26,623 nucleotides of DNA. It comes from a virus. Positions 18,521-23,907 of this stretch are shown here, one piece after another. The stretch lies in IMG/VR virus record IMGVR_UViG_3300037502_001941, positions 1 to 26,623 of that record; one strand, given 5' to 3'. Both the position numbers and the translations under genes were made by a program. The notes below the pieces were generated by a model. That model worked only from the letters and a program-made list of their open reading frames with translations. It was not told where the DNA came from and did not search any database. Every line of letters starts with the position of its first letter. Position 1 is the first letter of the stretch.

Positions 18521-20029
18521 TCAGTAATATTCTGCCCGACGCTGAATCTCAGGCTCATCATCGTAGTCAGAGGGAAGCCGGATAAACCCGCCCTGCCTGT
18601 ATCTCATGAGAGCCATAATCACGGCGTCAACATAGTCGTCATGCGCCCCATTTGGGAAGGCCGCACATTCCTCGATAACATCATCTGCCCATCGAGTTTC
18701 TGGAGCCCAGACTATACCAGAGGCAAACATATCGCTAATACTATTTGCGCGCATGATCTTATCACCAGAAGCGCGTGTTGGAGTGAACTCAGATACAGGT
18801 ATTCCTATCTGCCTAAGTTCATGTATCAGCGGCAAACCAGATGCCTTACCTTCAATCATCAATGTGTCTGGCTGCCATTCCTTATACACATCCAATGCAC
18901 GCTGCTTCAGGTCTGGGAACTCCATGCGTTCTTTGAACGCATCCAGCAGAATTAGATTCTGCCCCATGCTCCCTGATTCGTTTGGCTGCTCAAACACCCC
19001 CCATACCGTGAATGCGCTGTAGTCAGAGCGGTTGTTCTTGGTGAAGGCGGTGTCGGCTGAGATGATGATGTACTCGCAGTTGGGCGGCCTAGATGCCGGC
19101 CACCTCTTCCACCACTCCCGCTTGAGGATAGCCCCCTCTGCGTTTGTCGGCTGCTGCTGGTACTGAGCGTTCCACTTGTGGGCAGGCAACTCAGCCTTGA
19201 GCGCCTCAAGCGCCTCGATCTTCCAGAACTCAGGCCAAAGAGCATTGCCCGAAGGCATGATGGCGGGAAGCTCAATAACCTCCCACTCAGTCTCGCCGTC
19301 TCCCCTCTCCATAGAGGTTTGAATGAGACGGCCGGTCAGGTCCCGCTTACCCCAGCGGGTCATCACAATCACAATACGAGCATCTGGCTGCAAGCGCTGG
19401 CGGGGGCCAGAGGTGTACCAGTCGAAGGCTTTGTCATAAACCGAAGGATCGTGGGCAGCGAGAATCGCTTCCTGTTCGGTGTGCGGGTCATCAATGATGA
19501 ACAGGTCCGCACCCTTACCGGCAATAGCCCCGCCAACACCGACAGCGAAGTACTCCCCGCCTTTGTCAGTACCCCAACGGCCAGAAGCCTTTGAGTCAGA
19601 CTGAAGCTTCACCCCAGGGAATATCTTCTGGAACTCCTCACTATCAATGAGGTTCCTAACCTTACGACCAAAGTTTACTGCCAACTCCGCCGTATGTGTT
19701 GCTTGGATGATCTTCTTGTTTGGGAAGTTACCCATAAACCAAGCGGGCAGGAGAAACGACGCAAACTCTGACTTGGTATGCCTGGGAGGCATATTAATGA
19801 TCAGACGTTTGCAATCACCAAAGATGACTCTCTCAAACGCCTCAGCCATCACCTCATGGTGTCTGCCGTTGATAAACCCAGGCCATGTTTCCTTTACAAA
19901 AGGCAGAAACCTAGCCTTAGCTCTCTCCATCCTCTTCGCTTCCTCAAGCTTATCTACAAGCCTGAGAAGCTCCATCTGCTCTGATTCTGGCAGTTCCCGA
20001 ATCTTGGGCAGCAGTTCTTCAAGGTTCAT
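18521..20029 (-). CDS. terL: Terminase large subunit
   Basis: This 502-residue protein is the packaging motor and nuclease. The ATPase part has an adenine-binding/Walker A region INMPPRHTKSE (residues 78 to 88), Walker B DLFIIDDPH (175 to 183) and a coupling motif VMTRWGKRD (222 to 230). The RNase H-like nuclease has its acidic residues at D326 (ISADTAFT), E393 (MIEGKASG) and D464, D465 and D468 (AHDDYVDAV). Length is normal. ATG at 20029 is preferred: GGGAGG lies seven bases upstream, inside a hairpin. A GTG at 20044 in the same frame falls within that hairpin and is unlikely. terS is over one kilobase away, separated by two small genes and a long intergenic stretch. Confidence 0.96.
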   Translation of the reverse strand: MNLEELLPKIRELPESEQMELLRLVDKLEEAKRMERAKARFLPFVKETWPGFINGRHHEVMAEAFERVIFGDCKRLIINMPPRHTKSEFASFLLPAWFMGNFPNKKIIQATHTAELAVNFGRKVRNLIDSEEFQKIFPGVKLQSDSKASGRWGTDKGGEYFAVGVGGAIAGKGADLFIIDDPHTEQEAILAAHDPSVYDKAFDWYTSGPRQRLQPDARIVIVMTRWGKRDLTGRLIQTSMERGDGETEWEVIELPAIMPSGNALWPEFWKIEALEALKAELPAHKWNAQYQQQPTNAEGAILKREWWKRWPASRPPNCEYIIISADTAFTKNNRSDYSAFTVWGVFEQPNESGSMGQNLILLDAFKERMEFPDLKQRALDVYKEWQPDTLMIEGKASGLPLIHELRQIGIPVSEFTPTRASGDKIMRANSISDMFASGIVWAPETRWADDVIEECAAFPNGAHDDYVDAVIMALMRYRQGGFIRLPSDYDDEPEIQRRAEYY

Positions 20030-20065
20030 AAAAAAACCTCCCACTAACCACAGTTAATGGGAGGT
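20030..20065 (-). promoter_or_regulatory. Hairpin burying the terL ribosome-binding site; terminator-like
   Basis: On the minus strand ACCTCCCATTAAC (20065 to 20053) pairs with GTTAGTGGGAGGT (20048 to 20036) over 13 bases with one G-T pair and a TGTG loop. It is followed by a run of Ts and then at once by the terL ATG. The Shine-Dalgarno GGGAGG (20042 to 20037) is inside the 3' arm. The element can act as a terminator, a translational block, or both; it would reduce terL expression from upstream transcription. No second promoter is obvious between hairpin and ATG. Confidence 0.8.
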
Positions 20066-20146
20066 AAGTTTTCACTCAAGGGAGAACGCAAGCCCCAGGA
20101 AAGGAGGCAATCACACGAAAACATATTCTGCCCCCAACGTCAATGA

Positions 20147-21914: not shown

Positions 21915-22052
21915 TTCGACAGTCTAGAACGCTGTAAGCCATTGGAATCATTGGATGATTTTTTTTCCAAAAACACTCTAGACGGCACATTTGAACGTCT
22001 ATAAAAGGGCTTTCGGCGACGCGATATGCCGAGAGGCCACCGCAGAGCCACC

Positions 22053-22065
22053 GCTCTTTGAAAAC
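22053..22065 (+). promoter_or_regulatory. boxA-like antitermination sequence
   Basis: GCTCTTTGAAAAC resembles the boxA element found in ribosomal RNA leaders (GCTCTTTAACA and the GCTCTTTGAAA variants). In phages, boxA with a structured element allows NusB/NusE-dependent antitermination. It directly precedes the structured leader and plus-strand operon. Confidence rests on sequence similarity alone. Confidence 0.45.
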
Positions 22066-22085
22066 CGCATACAGTCAACAGGCCA

Positions 22086-22215
22086 GCCCGCACGGTGGAA
22101 GCACCGGCAACTAGTGGCCTATGGGTGAAAGCTTCCGGGCCAGACATGGCAGGAAGGCGGGGCAAGTGATCGGACGCAATCATCCGCCGGGGATAACCTC
22201 CCCGACGGTGCGGGC
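22086..22215 (+). ncRNA. Candidate structured RNA leader
   Basis: The ends GCCCGCAC (22086 to 22093) and GTGCGGGC (22208 to 22215) are complementary. Between them are GGAAGC (22097) with GCTTCC (22131), GCCA-GACA-TGGC (22139 to 22150), and a two-part stem GGCGG/CCGCC with GTGAT/ATCAT (22156 to 22188) around the loop CGGACGCA. GGGG and CCCC follow around ATAACCT (22189 to 22203). An alternative pairing of 22184 to 22192 with 22200 to 22208 competes with two of these, as in a switching leader. GC-rich DNA makes chance pairing common, so this is a candidate only. Confidence 0.4.
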
Positions 22216-22455
22216 CGCCCGGAACGCCGATCACACTAGACTAGCAGCGCTGCATCATGATGCACGGTGCCGGGGGTCAAAGCCCGGCGTAATTCCGATA
22301 AGCGCGGCCGGTCCATCTCCCCTGCCTCTCATTGCGACGCATCGCGCCGGGCTCCACACCGCAGCGCGACCTAGACCGGGATGGACTAGCCCGAGGCCTC
22401 TCACTGATCGCGCGCCGCGAAAGACTGCTACCGGACGCAAGCCGCCCGGTAGACC
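22216..22455 (+). other. Untranslated leader, palindromes and hairpins
   Basis: No convincing gene is seen; a 137-codon frame across the area has an Arg/Pro-rich low-complexity product and conflicts with the hairpins. It holds palindromes GCAGCGCTGC (22244 to 22253) and TGCATCATGATGCA (22251 to 22264). A hairpin pairs GCCGGG with CCCGGC (22269 to 22288). Another pairs CTACCGG with CCGGTAG (22428 to 22452) and presents the octamer GGACGCAA at its loop. Confidence 0.55.
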
Positions 22456-22530
22456 TAGGCGGAGGAAACTCCGACCTACCGGCGATGCCGGCGCATCCCG
22501 CGCCGGATCGCTTGTAGGGACGCAACAAAA
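22456..22530 (+). promoter_or_regulatory. Two-hairpin leader element, copy 1
   Basis: Hairpin one is TAGGCGGAG with CTCCG and CCTA around a GAAA loop (22456 to 22478, one bulged A). Hairpin two is GCGAT plus CCGGCGC pairing with GCGCCGG plus ATCGC around ATCCC (22482 to 22511, one bulged G). Next comes GGGACGCAAC at 22517, the ribosome-binding position, and ATG at 22531. A second copy stands before the next gene. The pairing is kept between copies although bases differ. Confidence 0.75.
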
Positions 22531-22767
22531 ATGACTAGGGCAGCGATCACAACAAAGTTCCTTGGCCCCACGAACTACCGGGGCGCGAGGATAAAGGTCC
22601 GGACCATGGAATGGTCCATAACGGTAGCGTGGGACTATTCAATGAGCACCACAGAGAACTACGCCGCCGCCGCCGCCGAGATGCTGCGACAGCGCGGATG
22701 GGATTGGACGTTGATCCCCGGCATCCTGCCGGATGGGAACGGCGTTTTCGTGAAGGCGAACAACTGA
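22531..22767 (+). CDS. Conserved small phage protein (78 aa)
   Basis: The 78-residue product begins MTRAAITTKFLGPTNYRGAR and contains SITVAWDYSMSTTENYAAAA, ending GILPDGNGVFVKANN. The pattern of a short basic N-terminus, a TTKFLGPTN block and a helix with Tyr/Ala is familiar from small conserved proteins in phage and plasmid early regions. Function is unknown to me. It is preceded by the two-hairpin leader with GGGA at ribosome-binding distance, so its translation may be controlled. It is the first gene of the plus-strand block and is likely expressed early. Confidence 0.8.
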   Translation: MTRAAITTKFLGPTNYRGARIKVRTMEWSITVAWDYSMSTTENYAAAAAEMLRQRGWDWTLIPGILPDGNGVFVKANN

Positions 22768-22776
22768 CGCGCACAA

Positions 22777-22848
22777 GGGCGGGGAAACCCCGCCCCCATC
22801 TGCGATGCCGGCGCATGGTGCGCCGGGTCGTTCATGGGGACGCAACGA
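22777..22848 (+). promoter_or_regulatory. Two-hairpin leader element, copy 2
   Basis: Hairpin one is GGGCGGGG with CCCCGCCC around AAA (22777 to 22795). Hairpin two is GCGAT plus CCGGCGC pairing with GCGCCGG plus GTCGT around ATGGT (22802 to 22831), with the same single bulged G as copy 1. It continues with GGGGACGCAAC and ATG at 22849. Relative to copy 1, stem-one bases changed on both sides, and the outer part of stem two uses G-T pairs in place of Watson-Crick pairs. Confidence 0.75.
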
Positions 22849-23598
22849 ATGATCATATACCGTGGGCCGTCGATGCTAGACGGCCAGCCCATTGTGGCGG
22901 TTGCCACGGGCTTCAACGGCGCCCGAAACGAAAAGACGGGGGCCGGACTCGTGCAGGTCTACATCCTGCGCGACGACATGAACCCCGCCGAGGCGTCCCG
23001 GACGGGCGCGGACGTGTCAATCTGTGGGGACTGCCCCCTGCGCGGCACCTACCGCGACGGGCTCCGAATTGAAGGGTCCCGCCGATGCTATGTGAACCTC
23101 GGGCAGGGACCGATGACGGTTTACAAGTCACTGGCGCGCGGCGTCTATGCCGAGGTCGCGCCGGAAGAACTCCCCGAATTGTTCGAGGGCAGAATGATAC
23201 GCATGGGCGCATATGGCGACCCTGCGGCCCTGCCGGAATGGCTCTGGCGCGCCGTGCTGTCGCGCGCGGCGGGGCGCACAGGCTATACCCATCAATGGCG
23301 GGATGCGCGCTTCGCCTACCTCGCGGAATACGCAATGGCTTCCGCCGACAGCGAGACGGACGCGCGCGAGGCCCAGGCCATGGGCTGGCGCACGTTCAGG
23401 GTCTCCGAGCCCGTGGGCTGGTCTAAAATGGCAGGGGAGGGGCTTTGCCCTGCCAGTGCCGAGGCAGGCAAGCGCACAACATGCGACAAGTGCATGCTTT
23501 GCAGCGGCACGACCGGCAAAGGGCGGGCGTCGATCATGATCCCCCGCCACGACATTTCAGCCAATACGGCGAAGCGCCGCGCAGGCATCGCAGCCTGA
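22849..23598 (+). CDS. Cysteine-rich conserved phage protein (DUF7227-like)
   Basis: The ATG at 22849 is preceded by GGGGA; an earlier in-frame ATG inside the leader hairpin region is rejected. The 249-residue product has MIIYRGPSMLDGQPIVAVAT, GDCPLRG (part of Cys-x2-Cys), a CYVNLGQGPMTVYKSLARG segment, and MIRMGAYGDPAALPEWLWRA with TGYTHQWRDARFAYL. It ends with LCPASAEAGKRTTCDKCMLC. Seven cysteines in three clusters suggest zinc or an iron-sulphur cluster. I associate this layout with a family of unknown function (DUF7227 from memory) widespread in phages. It follows the hairpin leader and may be an early protein. Confidence 0.82.
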   Translation: MIIYRGPSMLDGQPIVAVATGFNGARNEKTGAGLVQVYILRDDMNPAEASRTGADVSICGDCPLRGTYRDGLRIEGSRRCYVNLGQGPMTVYKSLARGVYAEVAPEELPELFEGRMIRMGAYGDPAALPEWLWRAVLSRAAGRTGYTHQWRDARFAYLAEYAMASADSETDAREAQAMGWRTFRVSEPVGWSKMAGEGLCPASAEAGKRTTCDKCMLCSGTTGKGRASIMIPRHDISANTAKRRAGIAA

Positions 23599-23842: not shown

Positions 23843-23907
23843 CCGTTCTAAGCGCGCCGGGAGACTGGCGCGCTCATCAACGGCCAGACATGGAAAGGAA
23901 ACTAATA

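Follow-up and report, generated by a model that had tools for sequence, protein, structure and literature searches.

A rightward operon with two-hairpin leaders

The window, that is, the whole stretch of 26,623 nucleotides analysed here, is an IMG/VR virus contig from an uncultivated phage. Its structural genes (terminase, portal and others) run leftward from 21750, while a rightward operon starts at 22531 and comprises phrog_3199, phrog_2554, a small ORF, an AAA ATPase gene (CobS-like, phrog_249) and the gene for a DUF7192 protein; judging from the genome layout, this operon is probably early. On the - strand, a terminator-like hairpin with a T-run is found at about 20027-20066, directly before the large terminase gene.

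Directly before each of the first two operon genes, which are mutually unrelated, sits one copy of a 72-nt element (22458-22529 and 22778-22849). The two copies are 74% identical and form direct repeat D2, the second-longest in the window; as the genes are unrelated, it is the leader that was duplicated and not the gene. In both copies a short hairpin is followed directly by an 18-bp irregular hairpin, the 3' arm of which reaches the Shine-Dalgarno (SD) position, and then by GACGCAAC and the ATG (22531; 22849). The features are the following:

22460-22473, + strand: copy 1, hairpin 1; CGGAG-GAAA-CUCCG, 5 bp with a GAAA loop, in both the MFE and the centroid fold
22475-22518, + strand: copy 1, hairpin 2; 5 bp, a 1x1 C-U mismatch, 6 bp, a bulged G, 7 bp (CCGGCGC/GCGCCGG) and a 5-nt loop
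22517-22526, + strand: GGGACGCAAC of copy 1, the same in both copies, between hairpin 2 and the start codon
22531-22767, + strand: gene after copy 1; 78 aa, phrog_3199 (family of unknown function), E 5e-16
22777-22795 (22777/8 to 22794/5), + strand: copy 2, hairpin 1; GGGCGGGG-AAA-CCCCGCCC, 7-8 bp with an AAA loop
22795-22838, + strand: copy 2, hairpin 2; 5 bp, a 2x2 internal loop, 5 bp, a bulged G and 7-8 bp
22837-22846, + strand: GGGACGCAAC of copy 2
22849-23598, + strand: gene after copy 2; 249 aa, phrog_2554 (family of unknown function)
23843-23883, + strand: third pre-gene hairpin; CCGTT...AACGG basal stem and AGCGCGCC/GGCGCGCT inner stem, from folding (upstream z -5.9)

In copy 1, one nucleotide separates the two hairpins and the 3' arm GUAGG of hairpin 2 overlaps the SD-like position. 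In copy 2, a single C is both the last base of hairpin 1 and the first of hairpin 2, the overlapping 3' arm is AUGGG, and the 2x2 loop replaces the mismatch of copy 1. Folding gave -41.7 kcal/mol for copy 1 (z -5.4, 0 of 200 shuffles as low) and -43.9 kcal/mol for copy 2 (z -2.7, 3 of 200 shuffles as low). Both the location of the elements and their anatomy, with GAAA and AAA loops, the CCGGCGC/GCGCCGG core, the bulged G and the final GACGCAAC and ATG, are as the first-pass annotation had described them, and the folds are stable. Across the 39 gene starts tested in the window, the three lowest upstream z scores belong to the AAA gene (-5.9), copy 1 (-5.2) and copy 2 (-4.0), the next lowest (-3.3) being due to a terminator-like hairpin. 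The third pre-gene hairpin, ahead of the AAA ATPase gene (ATG 23908), is unrelated in sequence to both copies.

The start of phrog_2554 at 22849 is backed by homologues beginning MIIY; a second in-frame ATG (22834) lies inside copy 2, and the homologues begin at the position equivalent to 22849. The family ranges over Autographiviridae, mycobacteriophages, roseophages and others. Its protein in the window (22849-23598) has invariant Cys/His positions and yields a confident AlphaFold model (pLDDT 94.6, pTM 0.91), for which no match was obtained against PDB folds at E <= 0.001, so that its candidacy as a binder of the element gave no lead.

Searches with the element identified no known RNA family. 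At the gathering score of Rfam 15, neither the window elements nor those of the relatives gave any match, and at E up to 10 only a chance miRNA match on the other strand (E 3.5) was obtained, in agreement with the earlier remark that this is no known riboswitch class. A metabolite riboswitch or transcription attenuator is accordingly most improbable: besides the absence of Rfam matches, both elements are without a terminator stem and T-run (no T-run follows a GC-rich stem on the + strand at either), and they show a single irregular hairpin with no obvious pocket or alternative fold. Counted on its side is GGGACGCAA, which also occurs in c-di-GMP-I riboswitches.

Pairing between the copies and counterparts in related phages

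Between the second hairpins of the two copies there are 11 differences, affecting 4 of 8 unpaired and 7 of 36 paired positions. Six of the seven stem differences keep pairing: they consist of two double changes (U-A/C-G and C-G/U-A) and two one-sided G-U changes, the seventh being the loss of one weak G-U pair. The first-pass annotation had proposed that the changes in this stem preserve pairing, which stands, and had placed the G-U switches at its outer bases, which does not: the exchanges in the outer stem are between U-A and C-G, and the middle stem holds the G-U changes. Its further claim, that the first stem changes on both sides, comes down to one double change, obtained only if a gap is placed in the loop of hairpin 1. 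For the two copies by themselves, covariation is modest, being matched by 102 of 500 shuffles; if seven stem changes fell at random, 17 or more of the 18 pairs would survive with a probability of 0.008-0.08, depending on the assumed transition/transversion bias. The pairing kept between the two window copies is by itself only suggestive of selection on RNA.

The G-U changes fit the + strand only, where copy 2 retains 17 of 18 pairs, against 15 of 18 on the - strand. This bears on the possibility of a DNA palindromic operator, or of a mobile palindrome that was duplicated recently and does nothing as RNA. The inverted repeats are GC-rich, and cluster O phages are known to carry many DNA-type 17-bp palindromes (PMC4351075), but changes that pair on the + strand only, elements placed only directly before start codons on the transcribed strand, and a sequence that turns over while the structure stays all make this explanation a disfavoured and quite improbable one.

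By sequence, the element is a family found in this contig only and outside Rfam. A covariance model of both copies, run over 47 related contigs, recovered only these two, the best outside match being in L149 (E 0.12). The core pattern gave 33 chance matches across viral contigs, none positioned like the elements. The pattern of GGGACGCAAC plus ATG occurs in at least 120 stretches and, among the matches listed, one has a clear abutting hairpin: L149 (7667-7738), where a hairpin of about 18 bp is followed by GGGACGCAACAACAATG before a 60-aa ORF. It is the best outside candidate for the sequence family of the window, and is possibly a real member, or merely the expected best of the 120 matches listed. 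Moreover, patterns of 19 and 22 bases had no match in bacterial genomes, and a DNA search of phage records returned none for the window or L004 leaders. A scan with the L004-type motif gave, among the matches listed, the contig of L004 itself and chance matches, including an unrelated repeated 25-nt sequence.

The comparison covered 80 contigs carrying the phrog_2554 gene. The covariance search suggested earlier yields no further copies by sequence, but structural counterparts do exist in relatives. In the closest relative, L002 (phrog_2554 protein 79% identical), the gene is immediately preceded by two hairpins, one of the UUCG type and one of 16 bp that extends into GGAGGG, and their sequence differs from that of the window. 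In L003, two-hairpin gaps of likewise different sequence precede two genes. L004 carries a duplicated module of its own, with one copy ahead of each of two genes. Over 18 hand-aligned pairs, three have changed on both sides and three on one side, and none is lost (P 0.0007-0.006); in addition, both arms of the second copy are one position shorter. Automatic alignment puts gaps in the wrong places when the elements of the window, L004 and L002 are combined, and the counting of pairs was therefore done on arms trimmed by hand. Caulobacter phage S2B (Autographiviridae, a T7-like family) carries a near-identical two-hairpin pair before the phrog_2554 gene and the next gene, with the SD GGAG inside the basal helix, and phage jiawei has two hairpins in the same region. 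Finally, four copies of an analogous hairpin are found in Mycobacterium phage Nanosmite (cluster M), where 11 of 22 pairs are changed on both sides, 97.7% of cells are paired and 0 of 500 shuffles do as well, on arms trimmed and anchored by hand in an alignment that leans towards structure.

Loss of the hairpins with the gene kept had been named in advance as counting against selection on structure. It is seen in some relatives, L005 and L008 (about 61-63% identity) retaining the gene without a structured upstream region, while the layout is kept in others. In 22 of 56 phages, the region upstream of the phrog_2554 start has z < -2, compared with 25 of 220 random windows (p 0.007), a coarse test in which the controls are random positions and not other gene starts. 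Relatives of phrog_3199 (6 loci) are without such hairpins. In L023, L029, L031-L033, L067 and L068, a different small hairpin lies directly before the phrog_2554 gene, with the SD apparently in its loop (GTTCATGGGAGTGAAC, GTTCTTGGGAGAGAAC, TTTTTTGAGGGGTCAAAAAA).

Selection on + strand RNA structure, as first postulated, is supported, because the changes preserve pairs, the G-U changes are strand-specific, and the same architecture recurs in other sequence in L002, L003, L004 and S2B.

Possible roles in ribosome access, RNA processing and protein binding

From sequence, the presence of two hairpins, their duplication before unrelated genes, the pairing kept on the + strand and the same layout in relatives with other sequence are established. 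With hairpins kept and sequence changed in the relatives, the shape of the RNA appears to matter, most likely for the control of translation or for mRNA cutting.

The reading preferred here, tentatively, is that of a cis-acting intergenic RNA module partly occluding the ribosome site, a putative gate. Two stacked hairpins would occupy the gap before the gene, and the basal helix of hairpin 2 would pair with weak SD-like bases 8-11 nt before the ATG, thereby setting, and possibly regulating, ribosome access; that the occlusion is the working part, and that any regulation takes place, we infer. Hairpin 1 may be a companion insulating or stabilising the transcript. Candidates for opening the gate are RNase III, a phage or host protein, or ribosome standby binding.

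In the window copies, in L002 and in both elements of L004 and of S2B, the 3' arm of hairpin 2 contains or adjoins the SD-like bases, which are for the most part paired, with P(unpaired) of 0.45 and 0.24 in the window, 0.30 in L002, 0.21 and 0.44 in L004, and 0.21 and 0.28 in S2B. The start codons are mostly open (0.85 and 0.88 in the window), and the combination therefore fits a gate on ribosome access. Several points stand against it. The SDs of the window genes are weak (-4.5 and -5.5 kcal/mol), so occlusion may matter little; the first L003 element, Nanosmite and the third window hairpin have an SD that is free of the hairpin, and there an mRNA-processing or stability site fits better; and to these must be added the unstructured L005 and L008 and the weak two-copy covariation. 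The cis-acting translational control first suggested is plausible in view of the SD-like bases in the 3' arm of the basal helix, but mRNA processing fits nearly as well.

The main rival, itself a possible though doubtful explanation, is a putative site for RNase III-type processing or mRNA stability. Host RNase III would cut hairpin 2, which has 18 bp and a mismatch close to its base, or this hairpin would form a cap at the 5' end of the mRNA downstream; hairpin 1 would shield the 3' end of the mRNA upstream. The amount of mRNA would then be set separately for each operon gene, in the manner of the T7 early region. T7 has 10 RNase III sites, several of them intergenic (PMC9135205), and paired 3' and 5' stem-loops surround the processing sites of cip-cel (PMC10311766). 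Such a site calls for an irregular double helix spanning about two turns between genes, and the element offers one (18 bp, with mismatch and bulge); irregular helices of 16-20 bp are found again in the intergenic gaps of several of these phages, including places with a free SD; and S2B, closest in layout, belongs to the T7-like Autographiviridae. However, there is no gene upstream of copy 1 whose 3' end needs protecting (although a long leader lies there), the hairpins abut, 0-1 nt apart, with no single-stranded cut site between them, and overlap with the SD is unnecessary for a processing role. Gating and processing could also be combined, as an RNase III cut in hairpin 2 could free the SD.

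The constant parts of the element raise another, unlikely, alternative: a putative translational operator, at which a phage or host RNA-binding protein would coordinately repress or activate the genes carrying it. One element stands before two unrelated genes, the inner core, the bulged G and GGGACGCAAC are identical in both copies, and the 1x1 mismatch context UACCGG/CUUGU is common to copy 1 and both L004 copies; among 257 contigs, ACCGG...CTTGT in a stable hairpin directly before an ATG occurs only in these three. On the other hand, terminal loops and outer stems vary freely and the sequence is not kept in L002, the closest relative. For binding by a phage protein, which the first-pass annotation had thought possible, no evidence was found.

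Described systems, possible significance and further leader features

Hairpins sequestering the SD at mRNA 5' ends, and translational operators, occur in phages such as T4 and the RNA phages. As in these, SD-like bases lie in a helix beside the start codon, the SD pairing itself being weak, whereas the window element recurs ahead of several genes, each time together with a hairpin upstream of it. With the RNase III sites of T7 it shares irregular hairpins in intergenic gaps, directly before genes; it differs in that the basal helix reaches the SD and a second hairpin abuts.

The closest described layout is that of the Extended Start-Associated Sequences (ESAS) in mycobacteriophages of cluster K (Pope et al. 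2011, PMC3203893). These are imperfect inverted repeats with 17-bp arms and a 4-13 nt spacer; many copies stand before unrelated genes, mostly outside the structural module, and each is directly followed by an SD-like sequence and the start codon. A role in translation was proposed (PMC3203893), and they have been surveyed again (PMC12699233). The two copies and the third, unrelated hairpin resemble ESAS in that several unrelated genes have an inverted repeat close upstream of their SD. ESAS, however, have conserved arm sequences and a 13-bp SAS (GGGATAGGAGCCC), whereas the window has two hairpins, variable arms, an SD in the basal helix and a phage of alphaproteobacterial type. With up to three mismatches, GGGATAGGAGCCC has 7 matches in the window, against 8.8 expected by chance, none of them at the elements; the element is therefore laid out like an ESAS but is not one.

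Cluster M phages (Nanosmite, with Bongo and PegLeg also matched) have an irregular hairpin of 18-20 bp, mismatched a few bp up from the base. It occupies most of the 75-100-nt gaps before rightward genes, including phrog_2554, and its copies covary strongly. They differ in their conserved sequence ACGGAGGA/UCUGCUG, in an SD outside the hairpin and in their actinobacterial host. The cluster M genome paper reportedly describes repeats suggesting translational control.

A broader generalisation, rather unlikely as it stands, would be a widespread design of phage operons, in which a double hairpin, variable in sequence and conserved in structure, fills each pre-gene gap, either acts as a gate on the ribosome site or serves as an RNase III cut site, and spreads as copies from one gene to another. 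The phages of alphaproteobacteria, the T7-like Caulobacter phages and the cluster M mycobacteriophages would then have this plan in common. It is common for phages to express adjacent genes of a single transcript at widely differing levels with no additional promoters, and a copyable RNA module setting dosage gene by gene would, if real, explain such differences and give a functional lead for the ESAS-type repeats described in 2011. S2B, an isolated phage with an annotated genome, offers a test system for the module.

Upstream of the elements, a separate structured leader RNA of about 330 nt is found in the window (22068-22395) and in L002 (2504-2832), with no Rfam match and no third member found. 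The two are 80% identical, with the match in L002 covering 2504-2818 (72% for the following gene), and their joint fold energy lies 6 SD below column shuffles. The automatic fold contains five double changes, no more than shuffles give; compensatory helices are GUGAUCGG/CCGAUCAC versus GGAACCGG/CCGGUUCC and CGGUG/CACCG versus CGAUA/UAUCG, and a pseudoknot GCCCGC/GCGGGC is possible. L004 has a long leader (2120-2460) with a repeated motif, AGATGAGTAGG, unrelated to the leader RNA of the window. Finally, boxA occurs in rRNA antitermination leaders, and a boxA-like GCTCTTTGA(A/C)A is seen near the start of the rightward leader in the window (about 22052-22063), in L004 (about 2126) and in L378 (about 625-640), and in a much weaker form in L002.
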